Assembly: GCF_000003815.2 (NCBI RefSeq)
Contig: NC_049979.1
Coordinates: 19,337,686-19,401,685, forward strand
Direction: 5' to 3'
DNA from: Branchiostoma floridae
Taxonomy: Eukaryota; Chordata; Leptocardii; Amphioxiformes; Branchiostomatidae
DNA: 64,000 nucleotides
In this document: positions 3,086 to 63,465 of the stretch, piece by piece
How the letters are laid out: each line of letters starts with the position of its first letter
Position numbering within the stretch: position 1 is the first letter of the stretch
Position numbers and translations under genes: made by a program
Notes under the pieces: model-generated
The model's database searches: none
What the model was told of the DNA's origin: nothing
The model's input: only the letters and a program-made list of their open reading frames with translations

Positions 3086-4408
3086 TATGCCCCCAACAGA
3101 ACCAAGGAAAGAAATGATTTCTTTAAAAAGGTATCCAACTGGTTTAAGTGTCACAATCCAATTGATCTACTCTGTGGAGGAGATATGAATTGTGCAAAAA
3201 AATCCCCTTGTTTACAAAAAAAGGTGGTAGAGCTGACACAGCACTAAGATAAGTTACAGCTATGAAAAACCTATGCTCTAAGTTAGATATGTGTGATGCC
3301 TGGAGGTCAGTGAATGCTGACACCCGACAATATACATGGAGGAGCTTGGCCCAAAATGTGGCATGTAGACTTGATTATTGGCTCATCCATAAAAGACTAG
3401 TAGAAAATATAGAAAAATGTGACATTAGACCTGCAATTCTTACTTATCACCAGGCGGCCTTTCTAAAGCTCAGGTTCGATAGAAGCTCTCGAGGCCCTGG
3501 GCTATTTAAACTAAATGTGACTCTCTTAGAAGATGAAGAATATGTCTTAGACGTTTTTGATATAATAGAAGAACAGAAAAACAGTAGCATTAACTCAAGC
3601 AGAGATAAGGTAGACATGTACCTCGTAAAAATATCAGAATTCTCCAGACAATACGGGGCAAAGAAAGCTAGGCAAAACAGGGAAAATATGGAACGTCTTG
3701 CGAGAAAATTATGTCATCTCACAACTGTAGTTGATGGAAATCCAACAAATGAAGACATCCTGACCTATAAGCAAGTTAAATCTGATCCAGAAATTCTTTA
3801 CAAGAAAAAGTGCCATGGTGAATATATTAGATGTCGAGCCAAATGGAGAGAAGAAGGGGAAAAACTGTCTAAATATTTCTTGAATCTGGAAAAAAACGAG
3901 GCATAGATAAGGAAATTGATTGTTTATATATTGAGGGAAAGAAAGTGACAGAGACCACAGAAATCTTGAATGAATGCACCAATTATTGCACCTACCTCTT
4001 AGACTGTTAGAGACAATTGTCGCCATTTCAATAACGTTTTTGTTGCCATTCTTCCAAGGGCGATGTGGCCCCATGCTCAGACCCTGGGCCTCCTCACCCT
4101 GGAGAGCAGATCCTCTGGCAAGCATATTGACTAGGGATGCTATGATGCTATTGGGTCACATGTGGCCAGTTTTTTTAACAGGCGAAAATCGCTCGCGCGG
4201 ATGTCATCCATCAGACTAAGACGGTGTGGCCTAACGTACACCGGGTTCTCTCTTTGGCACTCTATAAGTCTTAATGGTTGTGTGTTTTATTTCTCTTGTT
4301 ATAGAAAAAAACACAATTAGAAACGCCACAATATGATGTGCAGAATGAAGACGGAGCCACATATGAAACAGTGAACATGACTCAATTGCAATCTCCTTTT
4401 TCGAAAAG

Positions 4409-7400: not shown

Positions 7401-8448
7401 GCCATCACTTTGCATTTGTCCTCGTTGGCTTCTAGCTTCCAGTTTGTTAGCCAGTTGGATACCGACCGTAGGTCCGTGTTGAGTGAGGTGACTACACGTT
7501 GGATGGATCGGTTGCTGGTTGAGAGTGATGTGTCGTCGGTGAACAGGTTTGCGTCGGACTGTGTGCAGCAGGAGGGTAGATCGTTGATGTAGAGGATGAA
7601 GAGGGTGGGACCTAGCACGGAACCTTGTGGGACACCAATGCTTAATATGTCATATCTGAAATACACCTGGCATTTGGTTCCTTACACGAGAGACGAAAAA
7701 GGATCCACAAAGAAAACAGTCATATTTCTTTCATGGGGGTTCAAGATATAACGTTATAGAAAACTAACGTACCAAGGGCTATGAGAGAGAATAGAATGTA
7801 TGATTACATTAGGGTGATTTCGTTTTATTGCCGGCAGATGGAAAGGGGAAAACGTGGCAACAACCGAGGTGGCAGAGGTCTTACATGACATTGAAGGTGT
7901 GCAGGAAGCTAACGTCTACGGGGTTACCGTGCCAGGTAGGAGGCAGGGCTTGTATAGTCACATAGAGATATATATCTAAATAGGGACCTTTATTTGAAGA
8001 TTACATTGATATTTTCACACCGTAATTCACCTGCGATTGCCTACAGCTGTCGAATATCCCTCCCAATGTTTTATACCCAATTTCTATGCATTCCAGCAAG
8101 ACTTAACAGCGCTTAAAGCTGATCAATGTGTATGTTCAAGGTCATGATGGTCGAGCTGGGATGGCCGCCATTGTTGTACATCCGGGACACCTGCCGAACA
8201 TGTGGGAGTGGTACGCCCATCTGTCCTCCCGCCTACCAGGCTACGCCCGCCCGTTGTTCCTCCGTCTCACGCAGCACTTAACCCACACCACCACGTTCAA
8301 ACAGACCAAGGCAGAACTGATAAAGGAGGGATTTGATCCCAACGTTGTCACGGATCGTCTGTACTTTCGTGACGACTCTAAGAAGACCTACGTCCCACTA
8401 GATTCGGAGGTTTACAAGACCATTGCTGTCGGCAAGGCAAAACTTTGA
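4409..8448 (+). CDS. SLC27/FATP acyl-CoA synthetase, copy 1 (exons 3-9 in window)
   Basis: This is a paralogue of the gene at 9788. Exons by GT-AG rules: 4409-4567, 4699-4823, 5459-5653, 5988-6078, 6223-6421, 7838-7935 and 8141-8448. All phases match copy 2. Visible family motifs are GFPKAAK after the missing AMP-binding loop, [40 protein letters not shown] and the FATP/VLACS segment [12 protein letters not shown]. Members activate long or very-long-chain fatty acids to acyl-CoA and promote their uptake at the plasma membrane, ER or peroxisome. Exons 1-2, which would carry the N-terminal membrane segment and the TSGTTG loop, are absent. They are either left of the window or lost. Exon 6 is 12 nt shorter than in copy 2. 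Intron 7 holds a LINE. No frameshift or stop was seen in the seven exons. Confidence 0.88.
6754..7666 (-). mobile_element. CR1/L2/jockey-like LINE 3' fragment
   Basis: The minus strand encodes a reverse transcriptase fragment: [20 protein letters not shown], then FTDDTS where the catalytic box is normally (F/Y)ADD. After a frameshift near 7390 it continues through the thumb and C-terminal region ([31 protein letters not shown]) to a stop at about 6754. The AxDD alanine is changed to Thr and the frame is broken, so the fragment is inactive. It sits in intron 7 of SLC27 copy 1. Copy 2 lacks it, so it was inserted after the gene duplication or lost from copy 2. Confidence 0.8.
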
Positions 8449-9757
8449 AAGAACCGTAAAAACGGCTTACTGTACGATCACCAAATTTGCAGGGGGTGAT
8501 ATGATCGTCGTGTTTCATAATTCCTGGTTTTTATATCATTATGACGTAATATGACGTAATTATGACGTAATTAATTGAATTTTTGGCTAAAACGTGGAAT
8601 TCCCATAATATTTCACACAAAAAGTTACCAACAATTTTTAAGTGTTATAAGACTTCTGTTGTCAAAAGCCGACGCAACGACGTCAAAATGACGTTATAGA
8701 ATGACGTCATCTGTAGTTTAGCTATCCGTCATCTTGGATTATCAACCTTAAATGTCTTAAGATACATTTTTTTCAACATACAACGCTAAATCCCCATGAA
8801 GATGAATTGAAAACGTTCACATGAATGTTTTCTGTAAGAAAATAACAAGTAGTGATGAAATCCGAGTGAAAATATTTAATAAGCTGGTTATACTTTTCAA
8901 AATGATATTGTCGGCCATCTTGTATTTTGACCAATTAGGTAATCTCATTAGCATAATTTATGAATATTTAATTAAAAATGTTTAACTAAGATGTGTTAGA
9001 TTTTAAAGATGTATGAAAAGAAGTTTAGTCTAGCAAGAAAATCTTAAAATACCATTGTTTAAACCAAAATTAGTGATTTTTGTAAAATTTGCCTTTCAGA
9101 AACCCGTTGCCATGGCAACACGAAAAATCATAAACTTACTCTATTTTTTTTAAATTGTTGCCAACAATATTCTAGGAAAAGTCACCAAGTTTGGTTGTTC
9201 TAGCCGTTTGGGAGCTATACATATAGGCGACGTCAAAGCTTTTAGCCAATCCCAACACCCCCCACCCCCCAGTCCGGATAGGGTTAATGTGTGAACCACT
9301 AGCATGTTGTATGCGTGTCGTAATCAAGAAATAAACATGTGATTACAGTACAGTACTAGTTTGAACGTACCGTAGTTTCGGCCAAGACATTATGCAGCAT
9401 TCTCGCATGGGATGATTTTTTTTTTCAAATTCAATTTTGGAACAGTCCATTTTTGTAAAAGGAGGAGGTTGGGTGAAAATTGCTGAATTTGCTCATAAGC
9501 TTTCTAGTTTATCATATAGTAGTACGGCTATCACCTCGCTACCCTGTTCAGAAGAATTTGTCCGGAACTTTTCAAATACTTTCCTCAATACTTCATAGAT
9601 CCAAATACTACAGCCTTCTCGTATAAACACCGTGCAGTGCATGCGACCTTGCGGTCAATGGCCTTAACTTTCAAAAGTCAGCCTTCAAATCTATGACAAA
9701 GGTCAGGGGTAACGCCACAATCTGACTTCACGGAAGTCGCATCTTTACAGAGAGTAA
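8449..9757. other. Spacer between the SLC27 copies
   Basis: No exon is visible. At 8542-8576 the motif atgacgtaa occurs three times almost in tandem, and further tgacgt words lie at 8670-8710; these are CRE/ATF-like half sites. Part of the spacer (for example agtccggatagggttaa at 9270) also resembles a phrase at 47177, so at least part is an interspersed repeat. The 5' region of SLC27 copy 2 must lie in the right half, but I cannot fix its start site. Confidence 0.5.
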
Positions 9758-9787
9758 TTGAGTCGCTCTGTGCTCGTCTCCTACGCC

Positions 9788-11900
9788 ATGGTTAAGCCAA
9801 CAGAAGCCGCGCTGTATGCGACAGTTGGTGGTATCTCTACCGCCGTGGCGGCTCTCAATGTTTTCTACCCGCAAATCCGACAGGACTTGAAGTTTATGTG
9901 GCAATTTCGAGGCGCAATGTCCCGTTTTAGGCGGTACACGTCAGCCCAGCCTCCCGTTTCCCTGGTGGACCGTTTCCTCCACCAGGTGCAGCTCCAACCC
10001 GACAAGCCCTTCGTTCTGTTCGAGGACCAGCTCTACACGTACAAGGACGTGGATGTCATGTCCAACAAGGTGGCCAATGTTTTCCACGGGGAGGTGGTTA
10101 CGTGCGGGGACACCGTCGCCATGTTGGTTTACAACGAACCGGCCTTCATCTGGACTTTCCTGGGCCTGGCTAAGTTGGGAGTGAAGATCGCCCTGTTGAA
10201 CACCAACCTGAGGAACAAGTCCTTAGTGCACTGTTTCAAGGCGGCAGAGGCGAAGGTTCTTATTGTGGGACAAGGTGAGAAGTACCTTCAGACAGATGAT
10301 TAAGTGAGGAGTTCTGTGTTCTGAAACAAGTTTGAAAGTTATGAAAGTTAGTGACAGGATGAACTTTAGAAAGGGGCATGCAGAAAGCCTTTTATCAATA
10401 TAACCCTTCATTCTTTTTACTTCAGCATGCCCATTTCCCGTGTTTAAGATACCTCAGACCCGCGTCGAACCATTTATCATCTCATATAAATGGAGATATA
10501 GTTTTGTGTGTGTGCGTGTATGTTTACTAACCCGATGAAACTATTTAATGATATGTAGGTCATTCACCTGTTGGTCACTCACCTTTGGTCTTACAATTTA
10601 CATGTACAGGAAAAGTTGAATGGTTTTGGGACACGCTGACATCTTGAAAGAGGGACCTTATGGTACCGTCACAGAAGAACCCCTCTCTCTCTGTTATGAT
10701 AAGGTTTTACCATTGAGCTTGCTTTAAGTTGCCTGATGCTTGCAAAGTTGTTCCAAAAGAGAACCATTCTATCTGTATGTTAACTCGCTCATCATACTTT
10801 CTTATGCTATGCACAGGCCAACCTTTACTGGAAGCAACAGTAGAAATCTTACCGTCATTGGAACAGATAGGTGTGACGGTCTGGGTACAGGGAGACAACC
10901 CTGGTCTCAACGACTTTCGTTCATTGGATGATAAAATCAACCAAACCCCGGACCATCCAATCCCATTCAAGCTACGAGAAAACGTCCTCGTAAACGACAC
11001 TTTTTGTTACATCTATACATCTGGAACAACAGGTCAGTATAATTCCCTTTCTACAACTGTAATCTATCTAACAACAATTCTAACAACATCGCCATATCGC
11101 ATGTCAATTGTCCAGGAATTATGACATTTTTGTACTTAACGCTGCTACAAGTTTCCATGGGAACGGGTAAGTCTGGTACGCGATATCTCTTCAAACTTCG
11201 ATTGTGGGAGCGCGCCATTTCAATAATGTTTTTTTTATAGTCATTCTTGCCCAAATAAGGGGACAAGGGCGCTGTGGCCCAATGCCCAGACCATGTGCCT
11301 CCTTACCCTGGATAGCAGATCCTCTGGCAAGCATAAAATGCTGATTGACCTGGGATACTATGATGCTATTGGGTCACATGTGGCCAGGTTATTTAATTTA
11401 TTAGCCCTCGGGCAAGAATTTGCAATAAACATACTATTTAATTTATATAAGACAGTGTGGCCTAACGTCTCTGAAAAAAAACCCCAAACAAAACAAAATA
11501 CCAGTAGAAAACGCCATAAAATGACGTACAGAATCAAAACCACATGAAGCAGTGAACATCACTCAGTCTCATTTTTCCAAAAAAGGTTTGCCCAAAGCTG
11601 CCAAAGTGACCGTGGGAAGGTTATCCCAAGCAGCATGTTCATTCGGGGTTTCGAACGTGAAGGCCAATGATGTTGTGTACGTGACTCTGCCCCTGTACCA
11701 TTCCAACGCGCTGTTTGCCGGCCTGGGAGGCGCCATTGAGTATGGTACGTATCATACTTGGTGGATTGTTAAGATGCTCGTTGAATTATCTGCTTTTAAG
11801 TCTATAAATAGGGAAAAAGATCAGAAGACACACACACGCGCGCACGCACGAACGTACACACACACGCAAACACACACACACACACGCGCGCGCGCACGCA

Positions 11901-11933
<33 letters not shown>

Positions 11934-14338
11934 ACACACACACACACAGACACATAAACCTGGTTTGTTTTGCAGGGCACACTTTAGCACTTGCCAGGAA
12001 GTTTTCAGCAACACGATTTTGGGACGACTGTCGTAAATACAACGCAACTATCATCCTGTACATCGGAGAGCTACTGAGATACCTGTGCGCTCAACCAAAG
12101 GTACTATAATTTTTATCTGAAACAAATTAGTGTTTGATTGGAATTTCTTCACTATAAGGGCCAACACACAGGTCAGTTTGTAAGTACACCTCTTACACCC
12201 ACCCCGCTGCCCGCTGATCACATGTAACGAAAATTGCTCGGCTCGGCTCAACATCAGCTCGGCTCAAGACCATCCTTTTAATATTCATCCGTTTCCATTT
12301 CAAAATGCACACAAATAAATCTCAATGATAATATATACATATAGTTAAGGATATGATTTGAGCTTATATAACGTTGACATCTTGTTCAGTTGTTGTCGTA
12401 ATATCAATGTAGTACCATCTGAATAACCACCACCATCTCCATGTTTCAGACTCCCTTTGACAGGAATCACAGCGTCCGACTGGCCTTTGGGAACGGACTC
12501 CGGCCGGACGTGTGGGTAAAGTTCCGGGACAGGTTTGGGGTGGGGGAGATTATGGAGATCTACGGCTCCACGGAGGGGAACGTGTCGTTCATCAACATCA
12601 CCAACAAAACTGGTGCCGTCGGCATGCTGACTCCATTGCTTAGAGTAAGCAAAGGTTACATGAACGCACAAGATACGTTTTCTGACTGTATTCAACAACA
12701 TTGGTTGTAGTATTTAATACGTACGCTTTTAGCCAGATATACACCTTTCTCCTTTTATTAGATGTCGCACCACCAAAAGTGCATTATTTCTATCTCGCAA
12801 GGTAACAGTATGCAAAAAACCAAGTATTCTGATATTGTACAATTGCATAAAATCACGAAGATTGAGCTCTTATATGTACTTTTTCTTTCTTTATTCCCTG
12901 GACAGAGAATGAATGACAGATTCAAAGGGGCCTCCTTTCTGAAAGTAGACCCTGAAACGAACGAACCTGTCAGGGACCAGAATGCCAGATGCATTCCCGT
13001 GAAACCTGGTAAGTTGAGAATAGTTTAGTTTTTAACTATTTATTATCTGGTGTGTTACGCCGAAGGGCGGTTTCGCCGGCTATATAGATACGGATACAGA
13101 TCTCAAGAAATACGCCACAACAAATCACTCATCGGATACTAAACTTCTACGACTACTCCCCATTTCAGGAGAGCCGGGTCTTCTTGTTGGTCCTGTAACA
13201 GACGCCACTCCCTTCGTTGGGTACCAAGGAGATAGGAAGTTAACAGACAAGAAGATTCTTCGTAACGTCTTTAAGAAAGGCGACACCTTTTTCAACACGG
13301 GGGACCTGATGATGATGGACAAGGACTACTATGTGTACTTCATAGACCGTCTGGGGGACACCTACAGGTCGTTCATTATAATTATATCATTTACGTTACT
13401 GATAATAAATTCAAAGTAAAGGATAAGTAATAAATCTATGATTACATCAGATTCTATATGCATAAATATATATATATATCCATCTTGGTAAGCCGTTACC
13501 AGAAAAAAAAACGACTGGGACACTGGCAAAAAATACCAATGTTTTAATGTCATTACCTGGCCTCAATTTGAAGACGCCACACACCTGTTAGTCCGGCAGT
13601 TGCTTCCTAAAACGAGAGGCAAAAATGGCGAACACAGAAAACAGTCAAAACTAGCTTACCAATGAGTATCAGAGAGAATCTAATGTATGGTTACGTTGTA
13701 TTGCCGGCAGGTGGAAAGGCGAAAACGTGGCAACAACCGAGGTGGCAGAGGTCTTACATGATATAGAAGGTGTGCAGGAAGCTAACGTCTACGGGGTTAT
13801 CGTGCCAGGTAGGAGGCAACACTTGCATGGTCATTGAAAACAAAATAAAGTAAACTTGAACATGAGTTGCATTGATCCTTTCCCAGCGTAGTTGACCTGA
13901 TTGAAAATATGCCAAATATCTCTCTCACTAGTTTATGTGTAATTTTAAAAGTTAAAACTTTCTATGTATGCTGTCAGAATTAACAGGGCTTAGCCGTCTA
14001 ACAGCTGATCAATGTGTTTGTATTTTCAAGGTCATGACGGTCGAGCTGGGATGGCGGCCATTGTTGTACATCCGGGACACCTGCCGAACATGTGGGATTG
14101 GTACGCCCATCTGTCCTCCCGCCTACCAGGCTACGCCCGCCCGTTGTTCCTCCGTCTCACGCAGCACTTATCCCACACCACCACGTTCAAACAGACCAAG
14201 GCAGAGCTGATAAAGGAGGGATTTGATCCCAACGTTGTCACGGATCGTCTGTACTTTCGTGACGACTCTAAGAAGACCTACGTCCCACTAGATTCGGAGG
14301 TCTACAAGGCTATTGCCGTCGGCAAGGCAAAACTTTGA
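9788..14338 (+). CDS. SLC27/FATP very-long-chain acyl-CoA synthetase, copy 2 (complete)
   Basis: Nine exons: 9788-10274, 10817-11032, 11586-11744, 11976-12100, 12450-12644, 12906-13008, 13169-13367, 13711-13808 and 14031-14338. They join in frame to 629 aa, the usual family length (about 620-645). The start ATG at 9788 has a good context (gccATGg). In order: an N-terminal hydrophobic segment (about residues 5-22), the AMP-binding loop [14 protein letters not shown] split by intron 2, the substrate region [43 protein letters not shown] (ACS/FATP signature) and a C-terminus ending KAKL. The enzyme esterifies fatty acids to CoA using ATP. The sequence resembles SLC27A2/SLC27A6 more than A1/A4 by eye, but I cannot assign orthology. 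AATAAA at 15003 is a possible polyadenylation signal. Confidence 0.93.
11827..11956. repeat. (CA)n/(CGCA)n microsatellite in intron 3
   Basis: Alternating purine-pyrimidine tract of cacaca, cgcgcg and cacgcacg units. It sits in intron 3 of SLC27 copy 2, just upstream of the exon 4 acceptor (AG at 11974-11975). Only a remnant (acacacgcacataca) is present at the same place in copy 1 near 4662, so the tract expanded or contracted after duplication. Such tracts can adopt Z-DNA. Long Cys/Val open frames across it are artefacts. Confidence 0.9.
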
Positions 14339-15016
14339 AAGAACAGTGTGTCCAATTTGTTTACATCCCCAAATGTTGTAGCGTGATTTAATTTTCATAA
14401 CGGTTTTGTGTTATCATTTTTAAGAAAATTTTTCTACAATCCATGTTTTGTCAAAAGTGATTTGTCGTATACTTAGCAGACAACTTTTAGATCCTTTGAT
14501 AAGAATCCAGCATTCGCCCAGTAGACGAAACGTGGTCAGCCGTTAATGACATAAATGTAGCTGTCTTGAATTGTTCAGAAACTATCACAGAAGTTACACA
14601 CAACACTGGCTTCAGCAAAATCATTTGTTCAGTTGTATACATTTCATATGGAACAAAACAAGATGAAACAGATTGTCGATACATCATTATAGAATTAACA
14701 TTTATATAATTATATGGTTTGTTTATATATATAACAGTTATGACATTGACCCTTTCAGGTGATGTCAAGTAACTCACTCACCAATATTAATACTACATGT
14801 TCGTTTGAATATACACAGTAATGCATGTAATATTATATCAAATCCACTATCCATTCACCAGAATATATGCCAAAGGCTTCGATATCGTAACATTTTAAAT
14901 GATACATAATAAGTAAATCATAACAATATATTAAGATCCATGACGATGAAAGTCAGTTGCCCTGTTTTTTTTTAGTTTATCATCTTAATTGAAAGACGCC
15001 AAAATAAAAGCTTTTA
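14339..15016. other. Convergent intergenic region
   Basis: AT-rich spacer between the 3' end of SLC27 copy 2 (plus) and the 3' end of the receptor gene (minus). It must contain both 3' UTRs. I see AATAAA at 15003-15008 in the plus direction and no clear minus-strand signal. No exon or repeat is recognised. Confidence 0.5.
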
Positions 15017-18000
15017 TCATAAGTTCGAAGACCCTCCGTTCAGGTCTATGTAGCCATTTCCTTCTGACTCTGGCATGATGTAGCCTTCATAGTCTGTATC
15101 ATTGGCTGGATCTGTCTTCTCTGGCTGTGGTTCCACATACACACCCTCGTATCCTGGTATAGACCCGACCGGCGGTGGCGCGGGCGGCTCAGGATCGCCT
15201 TTACTGGCGTCCCCCTTGTCTTTCTCTGCCCGTAAATCTGCGTTCAGCGATGTATACGCGCCACCTTGCGATGTGTCTTTTCTATACAGGCTCCGCTGCT
15301 GTGTTCCGTCCAGCTCCATGTAGATGTCCTCGGGATCGGCGGAGCTGTAGTAGTGAGGTTCTTCGCCCGGACGCGGCGGGACAGGCGGGGGGACGTTCGC
15401 GCCCTTCTGCGATGAGTAGGCGGGGTTCGCTACGCCGCTTTTCTTCCTGGCACTAGCGGGCTGCAGACACACATAGGAACAATTACATACACAATTTCTT
15501 TAAATGGAACTACATCTAAAATTTCGCTTTTGGTATATTGATAGCTTGCAGATCGAAATACGACCGACATATTAAAATGGTGTAAACATGTTAGTACCGG
15601 AAATATATTAGGTTATTTGTTGGATGTCCATCGTCACTTCGATGAAGACTTCAATGGCGTCTCTGGTGCGACCGGAGGCCGAAGGCCGAGGCGCATATGC
15701 GTCCGCATGTCGGGCACACGACAGCGGTGCTGGGGGTGGGTCTTCCCTCCTTCTCTTTCTCCTTCCTTTCTTGTCGTTTCTTTTCTAGCTCATTTAGTCT
15801 GTTGTTTTCGAAGTTTCTTACTCCCTGATGGACAGCATGACGCCATGCGCATCTGTCCATTGCAGTAGCCTCCCATTCCCGGTGTGGAATGTTGCATGCA
15901 GAGAGGGACGACTTCAGTGAGTCCTTGAAGCGCTTGTAGGGACGTCCGACCTTTCTTGTGCCGGAAGCAAGCTCACAGTAGAACACTGTCTTCGGGAGTC
16001 GTGCTTCGTCCATACGCACCACGTGGCCAGCCCATCTCAGCTGAGCTTTCATGATGAGCGCTTCAATGCCCATCATGTTTGCTCGACGGAGCACTTCTGT
16101 GTTGGGAACCTTGTCTGTCCAGGAGATACCCATAATTCTTCGCAGGCAGCGGAGGTGAAATCCGTCCAGAGCTTTCAGCTGCTTTTTGTACAGTGTCCAT
16201 GTTTCACAGCTGTAGAGTAGCGCTGTGATAACAACTGCTTTGTAGACTGCCAGCTTTGTCTGAAGTCTGATGCCACGTTCACCCCACAGCCGCTTCCAGA
16301 GCCTACCAAAGGAGGAGCCGGCTTTCGCAATCCTGTTGGACACTTCCTTGTCTGTACTGCAGGATGAGGTCAGTGTACTTCCCAGGTAGGTAAAGCTCTC
16401 TACATTGTTTAGCTCTGTCCCTTCGATCATGATGTGAGGAGCTGCTAGTGACACTCCTGGCGCAGGTTGAAGCATCACTTCTGTCTTCTTCAGGCTAATT
16501 GTTAGCCCGAAGGCTTTGCTGGCTGTTGATAGGCAGTTAGCGAGCTCTTGCAGATCCGGTTCGCTAAGAGCAGCGAGGGCGCAATCATCTGCAAAGAGAA
16601 AGTCTCTCACCAGGGCCTCCAGCACCTTGGTTTTTGCTTTCAGACGCCGTAGATCAAAGACCCGCCCGTCGCATCTGTAGCGGATGGTTATCCCGGCATC
16701 TGTCGCAGAGAGTGCCTTGAACAGCATGGTGGCAAACATGAGGCTGAAAAGAGTGGGTGCCATAACACAGCCCTGTTTTACTCCATTCGTGATAGGGAAT
16801 GAGTCAGATACTGTGCCGTTTCCCACAACACGGGCCATCATCCCATCGTGGAATGACCTGATGATGCTGACGAACTTTGGGGGACATCCCAGTTTAGACA
16901 AGATTGACCACAGGCCCTCTCGGCTGACTGTGTCAAACGCCTTGGTTAAGTCCACAAACATGATGTACAGGTTTTGATTTTGTTCACGACACTTTTCCTG
17001 GATTTGGCGAAGTGTAAATACCATGTCAATGGTTCCTCTGTTACTTCTGAAGCCGCACTGGCTTTCTGACACCACGTCATCCAGCAGGTGCTGTGTGATG
17101 CGATTGAGGACAATGCGGGCCATGACTTTCCCAGCAGCACTCAGCAGCGAGATTCCCCTATGGTTGTCGCATGCTGCTCTGTCTCCCTTGTGCTTGTAGA
17201 GATGAATGATGTTGGCGTCCTTAAAGTCCTGCGGCACCGATCCCTCCTTCCAGAACATTTGCATCAGTTCTGTCAGTTTGGCTGTGACAGCATCTCCTCC
17301 CTCTTTGAGGACCTCAGGAGGTATGCCATCTGGCCCAGGTGCTTTACCTCCTTGGAGTTGCTTAATGGCCTTCTGGGTTTCTTCCAGGCTTGGAGGGTCA
17401 TCCAGAGAGGCCAAGAGTGGTCGCTGCGGCATGTCCTGGATTGCCTGTTGGTCGATATTGGAAGGTCTGTTGAGCAGCTGGCTGAAGTGTTGTCTCCAGC
17501 GCTCGGTTATGTCGCTCTTCTCTGTGAGGAGAGTACCATCAGCTGAGCGAACGGGTGCCATGGCATTGGACGAGGGACCATACACTGCTTTCAGACCTGA
17601 GAAGAACATTCTTGTGTTGTGGTCGTCTGCATACTGTTGCAGTTCTGCCGCCTTAGTCTCCCACCACTTGTCCTTCATTCTTCTGAGTTCTACCTGGACT
17701 TTACTCCTGAGGTGCTTCAGGTGGTCATGCTTTGCAGTGGAGTTCTTGTCGTTCAGCCACTGCGTAAACGCTTCTTGCTTTTTCTTGAGAAGGCTGGTGA
17801 TTTCTTCGTTATTGTTATCAAACCAGTCCTGGTGTTTACGCTTTGTGTGACCTAGTGTGCGTTCGGATGTGTCGTACATTACTTTGCGAAAGTTGCCCCA
17901 TGCTTTCTCTGGGTTACTTTCGGCGGGCAGTTTCTTGATCTGCTCCCTGAGGTTTCTTGCTAGCACCTCTTTTGTTTCCACATGTGAGAGTTTTGAGACA

Positions 18001-21000
18001 TCAAGCTTCTTCTTGGTGCTGTCTTTCCTCCTCATGTGTTTGCGGTCTGCCTTGGCTGTTGAAAAAGAGAGCTTTGATCGCAGTAGCGTGTGGTCAGTCC
18101 AGCAGTCTGCTCCTCTCATTGCCCTGGTGATGTGCACATCACGGATGTCTTGTCGTCTTGTTATTATGAAGTCAATTTGATGCCATCGCTTTGAGCGGGG
18201 ATGCATCCAAGTGGCCTTGTGAATGTCCGATAGTTGATACAGGGTGTTTGTGACTGTGAGGCCATGCTCAGAGCAGAGTGTAAGGAGCATTTGGCCATTC
18301 GAGTTCTCCCTCCCTATGCCATGGGGTCCGATGACACCTGGCCATGCTTCACAGTCGCTGCCCACGCGAGCATTAAAGTCCCCCATGAGCAGCATCTTGT
18401 CATGGTTGGGTACGGTACGCACTAAGTGTGCAAGCTTCTCGTAGAATTGTTCTTTCTGTTCCTGGGTATAGCTCATGGTAGGGGCATATGCACTGATGAG
18501 GGTCAACTGAGTATTCCCTTTCAGGGGTAGCCTCATCACCATAAGACGGTCATTGATTCCTTTGGGAAGGGTTTCTAGCTTTCTCACAAGTGAGGTGCGG
18601 ATGGCAAAGCCAACCCCGGATTCTCTGGGTTCATCTTGACACTTTCCTGACCAGAAGAATGTGTATCCGCCACCAGACTCGGTTACCTCCCCTGTGTCCG
18701 CCAAGCGTGTTTCGCTCAGCGCAGCAACGTCAATGTTGTATTGCCGTTATTTACATACGTACTAAAGTGCTATTCTATGATGTTTTGCACATAAAAGTTG
18801 CTAAGATAGTTCCCTTATGAGAAAGGAATCAAGAAAGCAAAGAAATCTGGTGTTCTTCAACCAAATTACCCCGCAAATTAATGAAAAGGGTATTACATAT
18901 TCAAACGTGTTAATGTGTTCATCAGTGCTTTCTCACACGTTCGTTCCTTTCCCGTCTAGTCTATATCCTCCAGTTCAGTGGATTCGACATTGGAATACAG
19001 TCTGAGGCAAGACACAAAGAAATATGTTTCCGTAAGATACATATCTTTCTGTCAAGAAGAAACGATGAAGGCACACGTACCAGATTAGTTCTCATTGTGC
19101 TCCGTTGTCTCCTAAAGGGAGGAGAGTTAAGATATAACGTTAGGTAAGCGCCAACAAGTAGCATCGTCTGTTGTGTAGTTGCGAACACGCATGGTCTACA
19201 GCAACATGTTATGAATGAAGCAGCATCACCAAAGCCAGTACATCTATATCAGAAATATCAATATATCTCATATCAAAATGTTATAGAATTCCGTTTCTAC
19301 AAATCCGTTCACCAGAGTGAAGCAGTGGGGAATCAGAACCATACAACAATCTTATTTAATTTAGTGCTGCACGTAACGAAACCGGGACTGAAAACTTACC
19401 CTGCAACTTTCCCGGCCCTGTAGAACAGGAATGCGATACTGGCACCTATTACTGCTAGCGCCAGGACCACACCCACAGCAACACCAATTATCATCGCTAG
19501 ATTACCTGTACATTAACAACAGAAACAAAGAAAATAATGAGTGGTCAAATCTTCAGAGTCACCGTGGTAGAGGCGAAAGGGGAGAATGGTGTCAGAATGC
19601 GCATTTTACAACAATGAGGTTATAGAGTTAAACCCCTTGTTATGCTTATCTATTGACAAAAATATCTAAATTCTACTTTCAAAGATAGAAGGTGTTTTTC
19701 CATGGAAAATGTAGCAAAGCTTATCAATGTTTGCAAAAAGCAAAACATTACACATATGGAGTATAATCAATTCAGTGGTACTTTCCATCAGTGTTAAGGT
19801 AATGTGAGTTTAGAAGACATAAAAATTGTGTAATGGATTCCATACACAGATGGTTTCTTGTATTACATCAAGCAAGGAGGTTAAACACTATTTTTAACCT
19901 CCTTGCATCAAGGAACTAGCTATAGGGTCTGTTGAGAACCCCCATTGTTGCAGGATTAGAATATATGGTATCGGCAATGATACATATATATTCAAAGGCT
20001 ATATTGAATAGAATATCCTTCATTGTGAATGGCATATATACGTACTTGATGACGCTGGCGGCGATGATGTTTGAGTTACTGGTGATGGTGTTTGAGTCGC
20101 TACAGTAGGGCTGGTCATAACTGATATTGGGTGAGTGACAGACATCGGACCTAGGCCGGATCCTGGGTGGAAAATAAAGATATCGAGTCATCACTCTGTT
20201 AAGTAAGGGATTACGCAACATACTTTTCATGCTTTGTTATGAATATGATCTAAGCAAACCAATTAATAGCTGAGTACATGCATTTGGTAACAATCGTTCT
20301 AATCCTGATTAAATTACAATGCAGTTCTTTATCACTGAAATTGGTCACTGGATGGTCACTGAAGAGTCACCACCTAAGTGGAAAAGGGATATGATAATCC
20401 AATGACTATATATAAGGAGAAAAAAGGACAGAAATTGAGGTTACAGATTCCCCAGTACTTTTGAAGTACTGTGCTCACATCACTTGATTGTTTGAAACGG
20501 CTAATTGGCATTTTCAAACAAGTAACTAGCTATTTTAAAGCGGCTTGTAGACTATCCTAAAACTTGTAACAATATTACAAGTGCTAGACATCTTTTGATC
20601 TCTAATTTTGTAGTAGATAAATTATTGTACATTCTAATAATAGTCATACCGGATCCAGTTCCGAAGTTACAGGGAGGTGTTCCCGACTGGTAGCTATCTG
20701 TATTAATAATTGAAAGAAAATGATAGGTCATGGATGACATTCATGGCATCTAACTCGTAAGAATCAGTCAAGAGCCAAACATTGATATGGAACCCCCACA
20801 CTCTCAAATAATCCTCTAGAACAACGTCTTAAAGGGTAACGGTAGGAATTACGATACTTGAAGTTGTACTTACACGCCGCCGTACCATCCAACTTGAACC
20901 TAACACAAGTCGGAGGGCTGGAGTTACACGATATGTCCAACTGTATGATCAGTCCGTCCACACAGGGGGACAGGTGGGCGGGGCCCCTCCACTGTAAAGA

Positions 21001-24000
21001 ATCATTACATTCATGAACAAAAGTAACAATACCACGTCCTCTCCGAGAAATCAACTTGTACATACATTGTGGACATGAATGAAAATACCCGTGACGGAAA
21101 GAAACAGAAACAGAGGTAGTTGACATATAAAGTTCGTATATTCTTTATCAGCGGCGTCTGATTTTCGTAGAAAATTAGTAAATGGCGTCGGAAAGGCTTG
21201 TATACAATTTCACAGAATGATTGTTAAGAACAATGCCCTTAACTAAGCTAAATGTTCTGAAGAAAAAAATGAAAAGTATTGTCTCGGTTCTTTGGTTTGT
21301 CCTTTGTCCAGATTGTTGTACATTTTTTGCATTGCCGCGCCAGCGGCAATGCCTTATGCCAGCTTTCTTCCATGGATCCATGGATCAATGGACGGACCTT
21401 TTAACCCAGCCCTTCCAAAGCCCCTTCCAAAGGCCCTTCTTTCCTACCGAGTTTCATTGCTTAGTTAGACAATGGTACATTCCAGGCGAGTATTAAAACT
21501 CTCTTCTAGACGCATGTTACTGTATGTGGTCCAGCGTAATAAATCTACGCTTTAACTCACCATGTTTATATAAAGATATATCACAAATTGCATCAGAAGG
21601 AACTTATTTTGTAATGAAAAATAATGCATATTCATTGTGGGTCAAAAAGTTTTACAAAACCTGTTTAATGTGCCAATAATTCATGTGACATAAATTATGA
21701 TAATGAGGTAAATTTCCAATATCCCCTTTTGCTGCATTTCCTACTGCAGTTGCTAGGTGTCGCTCTCAGCAGTTCAGTCATAAAATACGCGGCAATGCAC
21801 AGCTTTTAAAAGATTTCTTGTTTTACTAAAATCATATATCCACTTAGGAACGAGTACTGATCATGGAAAGATGTATTTGCTAAAGACGCCGGGTTGAAAT
21901 ACTAACCTTAATGTACATGTATCCATCTGAACGTGCGCTCAGTCTGAAGAACGGTCCACCGGCCCCGCTGTAGCTGAAGATGTAGCCCAGCGGCCACACG
22001 CCGGTTCTGTCCAAGTACAGCTCGTTTGTGACCTGACATGCCCCCGCCTGTGTCAGGAGGTTACCGCTCAGACGTAAGGCGGTCCTGGGCTGGAGGAAAA
22101 CTGACGACTGGCCTGCTGGGATCTCAAGCGTCTCATAGAGAGCATCTCCAACCGTCACGTAACACTGTGTCTGACTGTAACCTACACACAAAACAAATAC
22201 TGTAAATACATTTAATTTCGCGGGGATTTAATTTCGCGGTAGCAGGAAAAAGGACTTTTCGCGATGGATTTAATTTCGCGGTAACACCATAGACTGCAGT
22301 CTAATACCATAATAGAAAAATGTTCGCGGTGGTTTTAAGTTCGCGGTGAAGTGGTCACCGCGAAAACCGCAAACATTAATCCACCGCGAACATTTCTGCA
22401 TTTACAGTATCCTTTAATGGCTAGTCTTTCGACGTTTATAGAATATCAATCGTATTACACATATCGAGCATACAAATACCGCATTTCGCTGCAATTTAGT
22501 ACATTTGGTGGTGATGAAATAGAAGCAGATATCATTGTCTAAAATAGTGTAAAGCAAGTACCAGTGGATCACTCTTTCGTCGTATCCAAATTATGATATG
22601 TAGCAGGAACAGTATATTATAATATTACGGAAAAACACTGAAAATACACAATACGTCAACAGTATTCCTCACGAAATGAACGAAAGTTGGCAAACATTCC
22701 ATGCAGTTAACACTCTTTAACACAGAACATTTTAACATTATACATCTTTTTCATGCCATTGATCAATTCAATAAATAAATATAAAGCAATTCCGCAGACT
22801 ACCAAAAAGTGGTCACAATTGATTTACTCCTATACGTAAAGGTGATGAGAAGTACAGACTGTATTACAACAACGAGACAAAAATTGATATTTTTCTGATA
22901 TATGCATAGTATCTCTGAGCGATAGTTCCGCTACAAGCTAGATGTCAGCCTTGTATACGTAATTATTCCAAGTACAAGGCAGCTGCACGGTGACTCGTGA
23001 TATATGGATTATACGGGAGGTATTTGCGTTGGTGCCAGACACTGCCTATAGTGGCTCCACCCAGTCATGGAAGACTGGGTCAGATTAATGCGTTGTAGTT
23101 ACCAAATGCTGGTACTACATACTGACTACAACAATGGCAGTCTGATGCAAATCTGCGATATCGCACCCGTATACAGTTTACATTGTACATTGAGAACATC
23201 AAGGAAGACAAATAAGTGCAATGATCAGAAAATCCCGTGCTAGCATATGCGATCATCATATGCGATTAGATCTAGACATGGAGACTTAATTGAGTCACGC
23301 TTTTCTGCATAAGTCTTCTGGGATTAACCCTACCTTTAGTTATGTGGCATTGCCACGGGGCAAAGAGGGGATGGGGTGGCCTCAAAATGGACTCACCACA
23401 AGTAATTTCACAGCTTTAGCGCCCATAGATTTGTTTTTGCTGTTATGTCTATATGTACGCCTTGTTTGTATTTTCCCTAAGTCATCCTTATGGGAAATAT
23501 AATTTTGTAGATTTTTCTGTTTATCGGTCAAAACATACACCTTGCAAACATTGACACATATATAGCGTGACATATCAGGGACTTCTTTTGTCGGTTTCTC
23601 CTTTTCGTGCCACCTTTCCTATCGGCGCGCCTAGCCACTTCTTTGTTCCTCTCTAAACACAGCCTCGCTTGAAGGACTTACTCAGCCTTATTTTGAGAAG
23701 GTCATGAGTGGATTAGTTGCCATGGCGCTAAATGCACTAGTACCTTCCTGACACGTAACCACCGAAGTTCATGTAATGTTAGTAATAATTATGTGCCCTA
23801 CATTAAAGATACTCACTGCAAGCCTACACTTAAAACGTGGACAATCGTTTTGATTGCACAGTACGTACAATGGCATGACCTAAATAGACATTCCAGTGGA
23901 GGTAGTGTCGGTCTCTATGAATGCAATGGAATAGAATGACATAATTCATTGAGACATTTTAGATTAGCAAGGTATCCAAATTAGAATTGAATGAATTATT

Positions 24001-24483
24001 CATATATTTGTTTTTAGATTATGTCTGCTGCAAGACAAATACATATTCCTTCAGATCAGAAGCAACCTGTTGTTGTATAAGTATACTATTTTTCGACAAA
24101 ATACATGGCGATTCCCTTGAAATCTCACCTGTGGCTAGCTCCGTGTTGTTGCACACCTGTCTGTCGACGTCGAATACGTGCGTGCTCTGACGACACTTAC
24201 AAGCACACTGCTCCACACCACCATCGAACGTAAACTTCCCCACAAAATTTGCTTCCATCCCCGAGCAGTTGTCGTAACAGTGGCGCTGATTATTCGGCTC
24301 GACGTACTGACAAGGGTTAGTGAAAACGTCGCCATCATCTTCTCTATAGACATGGAACTGTTGATCGTAGTTGCAATCCAAAGCAGTGGCCAATATCCTT
24401 ATAGTCCAAAATAAAAACGTCGTCGAAAAGAGCAGCAAAGAAGATGGCGATGTCCAAAGTGGATTCATAGATACAGCTGCCAT
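15017..24483 (-). CDS. Unrecognised type I receptor with tyrosine-rich tail
   Basis: Eight exons (5' to 3' on minus): 24483-24129, 22181-21907, 20991-20874, 20697-20650, 20162-20046, 19505-19400, 19111-19081 and 15460-15017; 1494 nt, 497 aa, all junctions GT-AG and in frame. Exon 1 has a signal-anchor-like stretch (LLLFSTTFLFWTIRILATA) and a Cys-rich module of about ten cysteines. Exons 2-4 are beta-rich with scattered cysteines. Exon 5 is a Ser/Thr/Pro stalk. Exon 6 is the transmembrane helix (MIIGVAVGVVLALAVIG). The 147-residue tail has 11 tyrosines, NPAY, PPPVPPRP (SH3 ligand), three YxxL (YMEL, YTSL, YIDL) and two YxxP (YVEP, YIMP). I infer an adaptor-recruiting receptor. I do not recognise the ectodomain family. 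The start could be an upstream in-frame ATG (up to 24588). Confidence 0.75.
15619..18745 (-). mobile_element. RTE-like LINE with intact ORF (5'-truncated)
   Basis: One open frame (18704-15651, 1017 codons from its first ATG; the frame stays open to about 18745) encodes APE endonuclease then reverse transcriptase. Endonuclease boxes: VAALSETRLADTGEV, LMGDFNARVGSD and TDHTLL. Reverse transcriptase boxes: FVDLTKAFD, GVKQGCVMAPTLFS and FADDCALA. Downstream are YLGSTLTSS and GHVVRMDEARLPK, and the frame ends with a C2H2-like finger, CPTCGRICASAFGLRSHQRRH minus its last residues. The layout suits the RTE clade. The normal N-terminus is missing, so it is 5'-truncated. GTTATTT at 15612-15618 and 18746-18752 is a candidate target duplication. 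It lies in the last intron of the receptor gene. The lack of stops suggests a young insertion. Confidence 0.88.
19872..19906. repeat. Perfect 14-bp stem hairpin in receptor intron 5
   Basis: GCAAGGAGGTTAAA (19872-19885) is the exact reverse complement of 19893-19906, with a 7-nt loop. The words catcaag lie just outside both arms. It sits in the intron between the stalk and transmembrane exons. It may be a short foldback element or its footprint; no function can be read from it. Confidence 0.7.
21329..21352. repeat. Perfect 10-bp stem hairpin
   Basis: GCATTGCCGC, loop GCCA, then GCGGCAATGC. It lies in receptor intron 2 close to ccatggatccatgg (21370-21384), itself palindromic. It is probably part of an interspersed repeat. 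Confidence 0.6.
22197..22411. mobile_element. Foldback MITE with GCGG-rich interior, about 215 bp
   Basis: Both ends read inward as ATACTGTAAAT. The interior consists of repeated ttcgcgg / ccgcgaa units on both arms (aatttcgcggtaac, tgttcgcggtgg, caccgcgaaaaccgc), so the whole element can fold back. It lies in intron 1 of the receptor gene, 16 bp upstream of exon 2 in the transcript sense. Elements of this look are common in marine invertebrate genomes (from memory, not checked). Flanking target duplication is unclear. Confidence 0.7.
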
Positions 24484-25999: not shown

Positions 26000-28461
26000 A
26001 TGGCGCGTTCTCTCGGTATGAGTCATTTCCCGATTGTCCTCTGTTGTGTTTTCATCATCATTGGGGCCGTGAAGGGGACAAGCTCTTCAGAAGATAGAGC
26101 GGACAGAAAGTGCGACGTTGACAAATATTATGACGAGTTTACTAGGAATTGCGAGGCGTGCAGCCTGTTGTGCGAGGTGGCGCGGGACACCATGAAGGAA
26201 TGCGAGCAGAAGTGTGGAGGTAAGTAAAATCACGTCAAGGTATTTTGCAGCTCTCTGTTTGTGTTTCAGACCGTGAAATTCCTTGAGCCAAGTTGTTTTA
26301 AAATTGAATACGTAACGCTAGTTCACTTTTATCCGTGGGGTAACATATGTCCGTTGTATTTAAAAACAGCATATATAGGGATATCAACTCAACGGGATAA
26401 TAACCTTAAAGGTTTTGAATTGCAATATTTTCACAATGTTGCAGTTTGAAACCACAGTCTGCCGACTTGATATCCCTAAATACCCAGCCTTGTTAAAATC
26501 ACAAAGAATATATCTCGCGGATGAATACTGAAAACAGGCTTTGTAACTTGAGATTTGATTGAAGTATTGATTGTGGATACTCCCTTATTCTAAGATTTGC
26601 AATCAGAAAATCTAAGTGAATGTTAAACAAACAACCATCTGTATGGTTTTCACGGCCACTTCTTTTATGGTATTTTATTTTACTGCTGGAATTTCCCTCA
26701 CGTCATTTTGGGGCTTTCCCTTGCTGTTGAAAATTGTGACTTTGACTCCTAGCCAACTCAAATAATAGTAGGCTCTGCTTGGACATGTCTTAAACACTGA
26801 AAGCCACATAACAGATATAGGCAATATAAATATTTATTGTTTTATTGTTGCATTGCAATGGGCATTATATCAGTATAACTGTATGCAATATATTAGTATC
26901 GGGGTTAATCTAAAAGCATATTTTGCCGCCTTTTTGTTTGTGCCTGACAGACTACCTGGCCATGGTGCAGCAGCAGACGACAACACCTGTGTACAGGCCA
27001 CGTCACGGTCATCACGGAGGTCAAGGTCACGGCACAGGAGAAGCAGTCCGGGTCGACAACGGTACGTGCGTTATTGACTTCGCACAGGTGGGGAGGGGGT
27101 ATACTTCAACTCTCATAGTTCCACCGGGGACACCAAAATGTAGCCTGGAATCCAGCCGTGTTGCGCTTTAGTCGCTCCCCAGAGTTGCGTGTTGGCAAGA
27201 AGCAGAGCGACCAAAGCACAACACAGCTGGATTCCAGGCTAACCAAAATGGTCACCTGGGTAAAATACGGTGACTTTAAAGTTCACAGTAGTGCAGCATC
27301 TATGTGTGCACATTTCAGAAGACCCTATAAGTATAACACGATATGTAGGATGGGAAATGAAACTATCATTGATATTTGACGTTACTTTTATTCTGGACCT
27401 TGTGACAATCTTTTGTCGTTTCATCCACACAGTTCAAATTGCAACCCAACTGAGTGCCATCAACGATAGCTTGCGGGCTATATTCTACGTCATCTTAGCC
27501 CTGACTGTCGTAGCCACGGGTACGGTGATCGGCGGAAGTTTCTACCTGTTAAAAGTAAAAAGGAAGCGATTGGACGAGGAGAGTTACTGCAGCCCTCCCA
27601 CACACCAATCCTCCATCGCGGTGCAAGTGGAGCCGCCTGCGCAAGAAAATGTACGAGACCATCCAGAAGGAGGTAAGTTGCTTGTCACTTGTTACAAGGA
27701 CACGTGCTTTATACCCAATGCATTGTTACACGAACGTAGCCTTCAAAATCCTTGTTACCACTCCGTCAGCCTACCGTGATTTGATGCTGTACTGTAGCCA
27801 TGTATATGTAATATTCAACGTTTTACAGAAATGAAAAACCGCTAAAAGATCGTACGTCTGGAGAGATTGAAGCAACTACGGTGATAATAATTGTAAATAT
27901 AATACTAGTTTATGCAAGTATGGGTCGTATTTACTATCTTCGTTTCTAGCCCCATGATTGTATTGTATTAATATTATAGCATTATAGCCTCCTTCGGAAG
28001 CGGCTGGGCTTATTTTTGGGAGCGCTGATTTGCGATTTTCAACATTTGCGCAGGTTCAGAGCAGAGTTATACCGCTCCCTTCCACGACATTGAGAACCTG
28101 AGCAAATGTTGAGGGAGGCTAGTAAAACATACGCCTGTCAGTAATCCAGTGTGAATGTAAAAGCTACATTCTTACATCGCACAATAGAATTAGAACACGA
28201 GAACTGACATCAACTCTCATAATGCCATAATACCACTAGATGAAAAAATATTGTTACAGAGGCTTTCTCAAGATTGTAATGAACACCTAAATATCTGTGC
28301 CTGAACTCACAGGTGAAGAAGCGGCGGAGACCAACCCCTCCCTCCCCGTACAGAACGCCAGCCGCTGCCCCTCCCACAGCCGCCTGAATGTGGAGGACGC
28401 CCTGAGGAACCAGCAAGCTCACGACGCAGGGCGCAGGAGTTCCTCAGAGTCTGATGTCTAA
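26000..28461 (+). CDS. TNF-receptor-like protein A, single BCMA/TACI-type module
   Basis: Four exons, 26000-26219, 26951-27061, 27433-27672 and 28313-28461, all split after codon position 1, give 239 aa. The ATG is in aagcATGgcg. Residues 1-26 form a signal peptide (FPIVLCCVFIIIGAVKG). Cysteines at 38, 51, 54, 58, 68 and 72 give C-x12-C-x2-C-x3-C-x9-C-x3-C with YYDEFTRNC, almost the spacing of the BCMA/TACI/Fn14 single modules, which bind TNF-family ligands. A His/Gly/Gln-rich linker (exon 2) follows, then a transmembrane helix (about 125-150) and a basic stop-transfer KVKRKR. The tail has PAQE, a fit to the TRAF2 motif (P/S/A/T)x(Q/E)E, and ends in a motif shared with gene B (ALRNQQAHDAGRRS). 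No death domain is seen. Identity as a TNFRSF member is likely; orthology is open. Confidence 0.8.
27141..27241. mobile_element. 101-bp foldback element with 9-bp target duplication
   Basis: TAGCCTGGAATCCAGC at the left end is the exact inverse of the right end, and the inner arms (gtgttgcgcttt.gtcgctc and gagcgac.aaagcacaacac) also pair. ACCAAAATG flanks it on both sides (27132-27140 and 27242-27250), a clean 9-bp target duplication. It lies in intron 2 of TNFR-like gene A. It codes for nothing and would have been moved by another element's transposase. Confidence 0.85.
27985..28121. mobile_element. 137-bp foldback element
   Basis: It begins TAGCCTCC and ends GGAGGCTA. Inner arms pair (caacatttgcgcaggttc with gaacctgagcaaatgttg, one mismatch; gggagcg with cgctccc). 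It lies in intron 3 of TNFR-like gene A. The termini share TAGCCT with the 101-bp element at 27141, so the two may belong to related families. No clear target duplication. Confidence 0.7.
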
Positions 28462-30013: not shown

Positions 30014-30108
30014 ATTCGCTTTCTGTGTTTTCCCATAACACATCACCAAATAGAAGCAAGTGGCGCAGTTCAGAAAAACACACCCAGATCGCACACGCAC
30101 ACGACAAG

Positions 30109-32274
30109 ATGACTCATCGTACGAGAATGTCGTCCAAACTACTGGTCATTTTGCTGATAACGTCCTTTGGAAGTCCTATCGCTGGTAAGGATGGCGGGCA
30201 GTGCGACGTGGACCGCTATTATGACCAGTTCACTCGAAATTGCGAGCCATGTCGGCTGCTCTGCGAAGAGGCAAGGGGCACGATGGACGAATGTCGTGAG
30301 AAGTGTCCAGGTATCTATTTTCTTTCTTTTTTCATGTTGCAACAGTATCATAAATGTTGCATTCAAAATAGATTTAATACCTATGGATGTGAGAGTATGC
30401 AGGGTGATCTGTATGTCATCTAATATCCAAAACTGGATGCAAGTACTGGAAAACAGAATCATGTACTACACAATCATTTGCAGACTATGTTGTTGATGGT
30501 ATGCCGCCAGAAAATGCTACCTTGGGCTTGGATTTATTTGCACCGGGTTAACTTTCTGAACGAGACTGTGTATGTTGTAATGGCCTTGATGCTCAGTATT
30601 TGTGCAAAGATGCAAGTCTCTAGAGGCCCAATTGTTTACACCTGCCACCGATAGTCTGTCATCAATATGCAAAGTATCAAGCATACATATACATCATTCA
30701 ATGTTGCCATTTCCAGACGTATTTTGATTCGAAGCAGAAGGCAATATTTGCAAGAAACTATAGGAAAAATGATAACACCATATCACAAAATTGCTTACAT
30801 CTTTACACTGTAAAAACACATTTTTGTGTGAAAAGTAGGCCACATATATCTGAATTCCCCCGGGACTTTACTCACAGCACGATGGTAGTAGATATCCATA
30901 CAAGGGGACTTTTTATTACATGTGCTTTGAGCACTGCACAAACAGAAAATGTATCGTCATACATACAAGGGAAGTCCCCCTAGAACTACTGAGAACTAGA
31001 CGTTAACAAACAGATCCAGAGACAAGGAGACTTTTCAAGGACGGAGAGAACATTAGACCATTTGCTTGAAGATTTCTTTGTTCGGTCATGCTGATTTTGT
31101 TTTACATTATCTTCAATTTGCAGTAATGTGCGTCATATCCATTCATTTTGAGAAGCATACAATTGACACAGAAATATTTTACTGCTGTTATAGACTTTTT
31201 GGCAGAGCAACTCGCAAAGCAGACTGAACAGACGACCACAGCGACACACCGACACCGCCATCTTGGGACAAACCACAACGGTGAAGCATTTCGGGAAGGT
31301 ACACCTCTAAACTTTTAAATCAGTGTCTTATGTTCCAAATTCTGTCATACAGACATACTGACCGCTTTTCGCCAATGAAATGTTCTTGACGACTGGAATA
31401 GCAGCAAACCAACTGTAGAAATCTTCGCTCATATGGCATCGAAACGTAAAACTACATAATGTTCAATTGTCATACATTTTCACAAAACTATCTCAATAAC
31501 CCAATCATCCAGAAATAAAAGTGATTGAATATGCGGAGTGACAATCATTTCAACAGAATAAGATGTAAATTATTATCGATCTCCATTTCAGACGGCAGAA
31601 TCATCATCTCACACCACGAGGTGATGATGGGATACCTGATCATGGCGGCTCTGCTCCTTGTCCTGGTGGCCGCCATTGTTGTCATGGCGTTCGCGCTGTG
31701 TCGTCTGAATGGACGGCCGCAAACCATCGAGACGGACATCGAGAAAGCGATGATCTCTCTCGCCCCATCTCTGCAAGACGGCAAGCTAAAACGCCATACT
31801 CCAGATGGAGGTAGAGATGTTTAATAGTAAACTAAGATAGTTTATCATCATAATAGGTGATATTAAAGTGTTAACATCAAATATGATGACGGTGGATATA
31901 CTTATTCATTGAAATGATTCATCCCACTTTGTTATATTGTATATACTGTGGTTCGATGGGCAAACTGGAAGAGTTGCTACGTTCCTAGCTGCAAGCCGGT
32001 ATCTTTTCATTGAATTGTTGCAATGCATGCAAGTAATAAAATATTATTAGCTATGAGTTACATAAACTTTCTACTTAGACAAAAAGTCAAATGCAAATAA
32101 ATCTTCATTAATCTGCAAAAATCTACAGATGACGACAACCAGACCACTCCCAGCACCCCCATGCAGACCCTTGCCCGTCATCACTCCCGTGATGCCTTGT
32201 GCGCGGACACCGCTCTGCGCCAACAGCAGGCACATGACGAGGGGCGCCGAAGTCCTGAGGAACAGTTTGCCTGA
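30109..32274 (+). CDS. TNF-receptor-like protein B, single BCMA/TACI-type module
   Basis: Exons 30109-30310, 31194-31298, 31592-31810 and 32129-32274, all split after codon position 1 exactly as in gene A, give 223 aa. There is a signal peptide (MSSKLLVILLITSFGSPIAG) and one six-cysteine module with the same C-x12-C-x2-C-x3-C-x9-C-x3-C spacing (CDVDRYYDQFTRNCEPC). A Gln/Thr/His linker and a transmembrane helix (GYLIMAALLLVLVAAIVVMA, then FALCR) follow. The tail holds SPEE, a fit to the TRAF2-type motif, and ALRQQQAHDEGRRS, shared with gene A. The pair clearly arose by tandem duplication but has diverged strongly outside the cysteine module and the C-terminal motif. A TNF-family ligand is expected but not visible in the window. 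Confidence 0.8.
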
Positions 32275-63408: not shown

Positions 63409-63456
63409 TGTGGTAGACACGAAACTTTGATCTATTCTATGGGAAAGTTGTTTAAT

Positions 63457-63465
63457 CTTTATATA
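63457..63465 (-). promoter_or_regulatory. TATA box of the NTase gene
   Basis: TATATAAAG on the minus strand, about 50 nt upstream of the ATG at 63408. A start site 25-30 nt downstream would leave a 5' UTR of about 20 nt. This argues for the 63408 start and against an upstream exon. Confidence 0.6.

Follow-up and report, generated by a model that had tools for sequence, protein, structure and literature searches.

A Sha_B_N-Containing, Single-Pass Receptor of Amphioxus With a Putative Phosphotyrosine-Docking Tail and Its Locally Duplicated Relatives

A 64,000-nucleotide stretch of the genome of the amphioxus Branchiostoma floridae (the window; contig NC_049979.1, positions 19,337,686 to 19,401,685) contains, at 24483..15017 on its minus strand, a receptor gene that is here termed W. 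Judging from its sequence motifs, W is probably one of several locally duplicated, kinase-less, single-pass phosphotyrosine-docking receptors, which would likely use adaptors with PTB, SH2, and SH3 domains; both the phosphorylation and the adaptor binding are predicted. Two paralogues, A and B, lie on the contig that carries the window (hereafter C1). The view of W as a single-pass receptor with a tyrosine docking tail, put forward in an initial annotation, is supported by the sequence anatomy of the gene as well as by the architecture and the V-x-NPxY motif found in all three members.

The gene model of W, read from genomic sequence, is exact and open. Eight exons and seven introns encoding an in-frame protein of 497 residues had been proposed, and this model was confirmed, with its coordinates, strand, and exon count exact (Table 1). 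All seven introns are bounded by GT..AG, the coding sequence of 1494 nt reaches a TGA codon without an internal stop, and the intron phases (1,0,1,1,1,2,0) are echoed in the paralogues. The microexon preceding the tail exon is required for the frame, as skipping it leads to a stop shortly downstream, and an equivalent short exon with the same phases is present in B (25 nt) and A (37 nt). The open frame of a retrotransposon in intron 7 is not part of the receptor. From its N-terminus, the encoded protein comprises a hydrophobic segment or signal peptide, a Cys-rich ectodomain with 14 cysteines, a stalk, one transmembrane helix, and a tail contributed by the last exon. Besides the N-terminus, hydropathy windows (19-residue means) exceed 1.6 at residues 301-336, with a maximum of 2.83, giving one transmembrane segment in W; A and B have one each, as judged by eye only.

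The ectodomain had been described as unrecognized. This proved half wrong, because its first domain is Sha_B_N (PF23328, the Shavenoid isoform B N-terminal domain), the sole family found in a Pfam scan of W at E<=10. With the whole protein as query, residues 43-113 matched profile positions 2-59 of 62 with an E value of 2.3e-6 and 28.2 bits, compared with a curated cut-off of 24.4 bits. The domain alone scored 34.2 bits (E 3.1e-8), and none of nine shuffles with fixed cysteines matched the profile. On the basis of a match above the curated cut-off over most of the profile, W is assigned to the Sha_B_N domain family. The description was half right because residues ~119-250, the second module, have no counterpart in Pfam and no convincing one among PDB chains: sequence and profile searches of the PDB with W or this module returned only transmembrane matches or matches with an E value of 0.067 and weaker, and none of eight copies of the module's exon 2 matched in Pfam. 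In the same Pfam scans, the ectodomain of W showed no immune-type domain and no TNFR_c6-type repeats, and neither GAIN nor 7tm_2 was detected in W, A, or B; W is thus classified as neither a TNF receptor nor an adhesion G protein-coupled receptor (GPCR).

The last exon encodes residues 351-497 (147 residues), and every motif previously listed for it is present, i.e., 11 tyrosines, NPAY, three YxxL motifs, two YxxP motifs, and PPPVPPRP (Table 1). The tyrosine content is high, with a probability of 0.005 for at least 11 tyrosines under an assumed background of 3%. Motif significance was gauged with 5000 shuffles of the tail sequence: the three YxxL motifs compare with 0.43 expected and were reached in 0.4% of shuffles, while a hydrophobic-x-NPxY motif arose in 1.7% and a plain NPxY, which is not very rare, in 7.4%. 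Consensus scans of the W tail found no YxN, no YxxM, no immunoreceptor tyrosine-based inhibitory motif (ITIM; [SIVLT]xYxx[ILV]), and no immunoreceptor tyrosine-based activation motif (ITAM; Yxx[LI](6-12)Yxx[LI]). The ITIM pattern was likewise absent from the tails of A and B, the ITAM pattern having been counted in W only. These results weaken the earlier suggestion that the tail recruits SHP/SYK-type partners. The 147-residue tail also had no Pfam match and no kinase domain, and W is therefore not a receptor tyrosine kinase.

Genome-wide searches covered 513 Mb in 431 contigs. A query derived from a Branchiostoma fluorescent protein gave 69 matches, up to 85-88% identical, mostly clustered on contigs C4 and C17 with the remainder on C3 and C14; arrays of this kind are known from amphioxus, and a chordate origin is thereby strongly indicated. 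For Sha_B_N, 11 candidates were scored, of which six were listed at E<=10 and two lay above the cut-off, namely exon 1 of W and an exon 71 kb further along C1 on the opposite strand. A and B are complete paralogues from that second region; their boundaries were chosen with the phase pattern of W known, a choice that the reading frame and the splice signals narrowly constrain. The intron phases of B reproduce those of W (1,0,1,1,1,2,0) with one extra phase-0 tail intron, and those of A (1,0,1,1,2,0,0) would fit a fusion of stalk exons together with a split tail. B matches Sha_B_N with 38.5 bits over positions 2-59 of 62, and nine ectodomain cysteines are invariant in all three proteins. Ectodomain similarity gave z scores of 11.3 for W-B, 7.9 for W-A, and 36 for A-B, with none of 300 shuffles reaching the score in any pair; blastp gave 1.8e-11 for W-A and 2e-7 for W-B. 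Just inside the membrane, each protein carries V-x-N-P-x-Y, in the form of VANPAY in W and VENPSY and VQNPGY in A and B. Tyrosines account for 11 of 161 tail residues in W, 15 of 304 in A, and 16 of 184 in B. Seven YxxP motifs (two of them YDEP) and five YxxL/I/V motifs occur in the tail of A, compared with one and six, respectively, in that of B, and the tails of A and B resemble each other (z 5.7; 0/300 shuffles). From these sequence comparisons, W, A, and B appear to form a small, locally duplicated family.

Several observations weigh against this grouping or against the proposed docking function. No Sha_B_N match was found in A at E<=10, and the Sha_B_N match in B is overlapped by a weak one to BPTI_nem, whose 17.2 bits fall short of the cut-off of 27. 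Tail similarity to W is weak, with a z score of 3.2 for W-B (4/300 shuffles) and -0.4 for W-A (197/300). In genome-wide tblastn searches, the W ectodomain retrieved nothing at E<=0.1 beyond the three exons of W itself. Those of A and B retrieved each other and further copies, not W. Taken in W alone, YxxP (47% of shuffles) and PxxPxR (22%) are at chance level. Finally, the link to actin considered below is borrowed from a fly protein tied to W by one domain name. Because genome-wide tblastn does not connect W to A and B, because W matched the 48-kb stretch that contains A and B only weakly (best E 0.002, for the transmembrane exon), and because exon 2 of W is only 20% identical to that of B, W is placed by sequence as a distant member of the family. 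It is kept there on account of the Sha_B_N match, the exon phases, the cysteines, and the NPxY motif.

The second ectodomain module is reused in adhesion-GPCR-type regions further along the chromosome (regions C, D/E, and F/G; Table 1), which were read exon by exon. In an alignment of eight copies of exon 2, identity to the B copy ranges from 20% (W) to 79% among the other seven. These regions have the second module in common with W and differ from it in what follows, i.e., TSP_1 and a below-cut-off GAIN-like exon in C and 7tm_2 in D/E and F/G, compared with one transmembrane segment and a docking tail in W.

In the mechanism that we propose, the ectodomain, consisting of an N-terminal Sha_B_N domain and the unnamed Cys-containing second module, would be presented on a mucin-like stalk. 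A ligand or contact with a neighboring cell would cluster the receptor, whereupon a Src- or Abl-type kinase would phosphorylate the tail. A Shc-, Dab-, or tensin-type PTB protein may dock at the NPxY site, and SH2/SH3 adaptors, for example Crk or Nck, may be drawn to the YxxP, YxxL, and polyproline sites. YxxP is a Crk site, YDEP is a Nck-type site, and PxxPxR is a class II SH3 site. With its NPxY, multiple SH2-type sites, and lack of an enzyme domain, W resembles the motif arrays of LRP, Draper/CED-1, and p130Cas-like proteins; unlike these, it has no EMI, EGF, LDLa, or SH3 domain by Pfam. The likeliest output would be local actin remodeling or adhesion/uptake signaling, and not ITIM or ITAM immune signaling, an actin or adhesion output being our most economical guess by analogy. 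In the available text of one source, phosphorylated YDxV recruits Nck and reorganizes actin, and NPxY is commonly bound by PTB domains, mostly with a preference for the unphosphorylated form (PMC3507883).

It is possible, although doubtful, that the family is instead the direct counterpart of Drosophila Shavenoid (sha/kojak), acting at the membrane of epithelial or sensory cells to organize actin-rich protrusions. Like W and B, Shavenoid has an N-terminal Cys-rich Sha_B_N domain (profile positions 2-59 of 62), and motifs for Nck/Crk-type adaptors, of which A has the most, would suit such a role. Against direct correspondence, the comparison with Shavenoid covered a single 62-position domain, which is all that is shown to be shared. 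According to the available portions of the fly literature, Shavenoid, termed a pioneer protein (PMC4053989), promotes actin-rich hairs in Drosophila (PMC9375228); hairs are lost or delayed in its mutants, and its over-expression restores the hairs lost in pldo knock-down (PMC9375228, PMC4053989, PMC4346269). The accessible text of PMC9375228 describes Shavenoid as insect- and arthropod-specific, whereas Sha_B_N is found here in a chordate genome. The literature searched contained no mention of shavenoid together with amphioxus.

A rather unlikely alternative is that W serves mainly as an endocytic or adhesion receptor, in which NPxY and YxxPhi would be sorting signals for clathrin uptake of ectodomain-bound ligand without kinase signaling. 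The membrane-adjacent NPxY is the motif kept in all three members, and YxxPhi-type motifs in W number four, compared with 1.32 expected (2.8% of shuffles), both of which accord with this role. Conversely, the tails seem longer and richer in tyrosine than sorting would need, and the YxxP motifs, the YDEP motifs of A, and the polyproline motifs argue for docking.

The initial annotation had also proposed an immune or growth receptor, given the proximity of two TNF-receptor-like genes, and the neighborhood does not support this. Two BCMA-like exons were scanned; one had no match, and the other fell below the Pfam cut-off (Table 1). The relatives found for W are other Sha-type receptors and the adhesion-GPCR-type regions further along the chromosome. 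That W is an ITIM- or ITAM-type receptor of innate immunity is quite improbable, even if local duplication and fast-diverging tails are presumably common in immune receptors and amphioxus has at least one ITIM-type receptor, as described in the available text of PMC8211107. The same text reports that Lck phosphorylates this inhibitory receptor, BbLcLRR, and that its action in Jurkat cells proceeds through its tail tyrosines (PMC8211107). W resembles BbLcLRR in being an amphioxus receptor with tail tyrosines; the leucine-rich repeat ectodomain and ITIM-like motifs described for BbLcLRR (PMC8211107) were not found in W. With neither ITIM nor ITAM in the W tail, no ITIM in A or B, and no immune-type ectodomain domain detected, an immune role for W has no support. 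Lastly, a chance assembly of exons or a decayed gene is scarcely credible for a model that, while read from genomic DNA, combines a Sha_B_N match in exon 1, phases matching in B and compatible in A, and no in-frame stop, and whose second module shows ratios of nonsynonymous to synonymous substitution below 1 (0.41, 0.54; significance not assessed) between the B and C copies.

Table 1. Exons of W (window coordinates) and related or neighboring features (window coordinates unless prefixed with C1).
Feature	Position	Strand	Content
W exon 1	24129..24483	-	Start codon; signal peptide, residues 1-~35; Cys-rich Sha_B_N, residues 43-113 (24145-24357)
W exon 2	21907..22181	-	Second ectodomain module, first part, residues 119-210
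W exon 3	20874..20991	-	Second ectodomain module, second part, GLIIQLDISC..CVRFK, residues 211-250
W exon 4	20650..20697	-	Short linker exon; similar place and phase in paralogue B
W exon 5	20046..20162	-	Stalk rich in Thr/Ser/Pro
W exon 6	19400..19505	-	Single transmembrane helix
W exon 7	19081..19111	-	31-nt juxtamembrane microexon
W exon 8	15017..15460	-	Docking tail: VANPAY, YMEL, YTSL, YIDL, YVEP, YIMP, PPPVPPRP; TGA at 15019-15017
Non-long terminal repeat (non-LTR) retrotransposon	15651..18746	-	1031-codon open frame, Exo_endo_phos + RVT_1; inside W intron 7, same strand as W
BCMA-like short receptor exon (CDVDKYYDEFTRNCEAC..)	~26000-27800	+	No match
BCMA-like short receptor exon (CDVDRYYDQFTRNCEPC..)	~30100-31800	+	BCMA-Tall_bind, E 0.0039, below cut-off
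Paralogue A	C1:19426160-19431284		651 aa; spliced by hand at canonical splice sites
Paralogue B	C1:19432607-19438156		550 aa; spliced by hand at canonical splice sites
Region C (L006/L007)	C1:19439500-19458999		Module exons 2+3, then six similar TSP1-type exons (one scanned); GAIN-like exon below cut-off
Regions D/E and F/G (L028-L031)	C1:19511001-19551000		Adhesion-GPCR type; both regions have 7tm_2 exons and two copies of the second module

Elsewhere in the window, two acyl-CoA-synthetase-like genes stand in tandem on the plus strand at ~4000-8450 and ~9750-14340, with blocks of 88-97% identity between them. The one exon scanned of the second copy gave an AMP-binding match, and reverse-transcriptase-like frames were seen by eye inside the first copy (6754-7681, minus strand). 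At 60367-63528 on the minus strand, an open frame matches a DUF294 nucleotidyltransferase (24.8 bits; cut-off 21), and the 517-codon open frame that comes after it matched nothing in Pfam at E<=0.01. Frames resembling an HSPA12/HSP70-type ATPase by eye, also with no Pfam match at E<=0.01, occur at 46283-46645 and 56387-57610 on the plus strand. Between 39593 and 54191, short repeats are dispersed in 12 copies of 60 nt with ATTATGCAAAT..ATTTGCATAATTAATGAG-like ends, perhaps a family of miniature inverted-repeat transposable elements.

A broader and rather improbable scenario is that receptors with Sha_B_N form an ancient bilaterian class, sensing ligands for actin-based protrusions, of which fly Shavenoid would be the arthropod branch. 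The amphioxus ectodomain family would then have been rewired twice within a single chromosome region, once toward phosphotyrosine docking tails (W, A, and B) and once toward adhesion GPCRs, the latter by way of the symmetrical 1-1 second module; if true, related ectodomains would therefore feed two different signaling outputs. The region may show one ectodomain module common to docking receptors and adhesion GPCRs. A chordate family that combines Sha_B_N, a membrane anchor, and a tail for docking adaptors would, if true, offer a testable mechanism and imply a deeper age for the domain.

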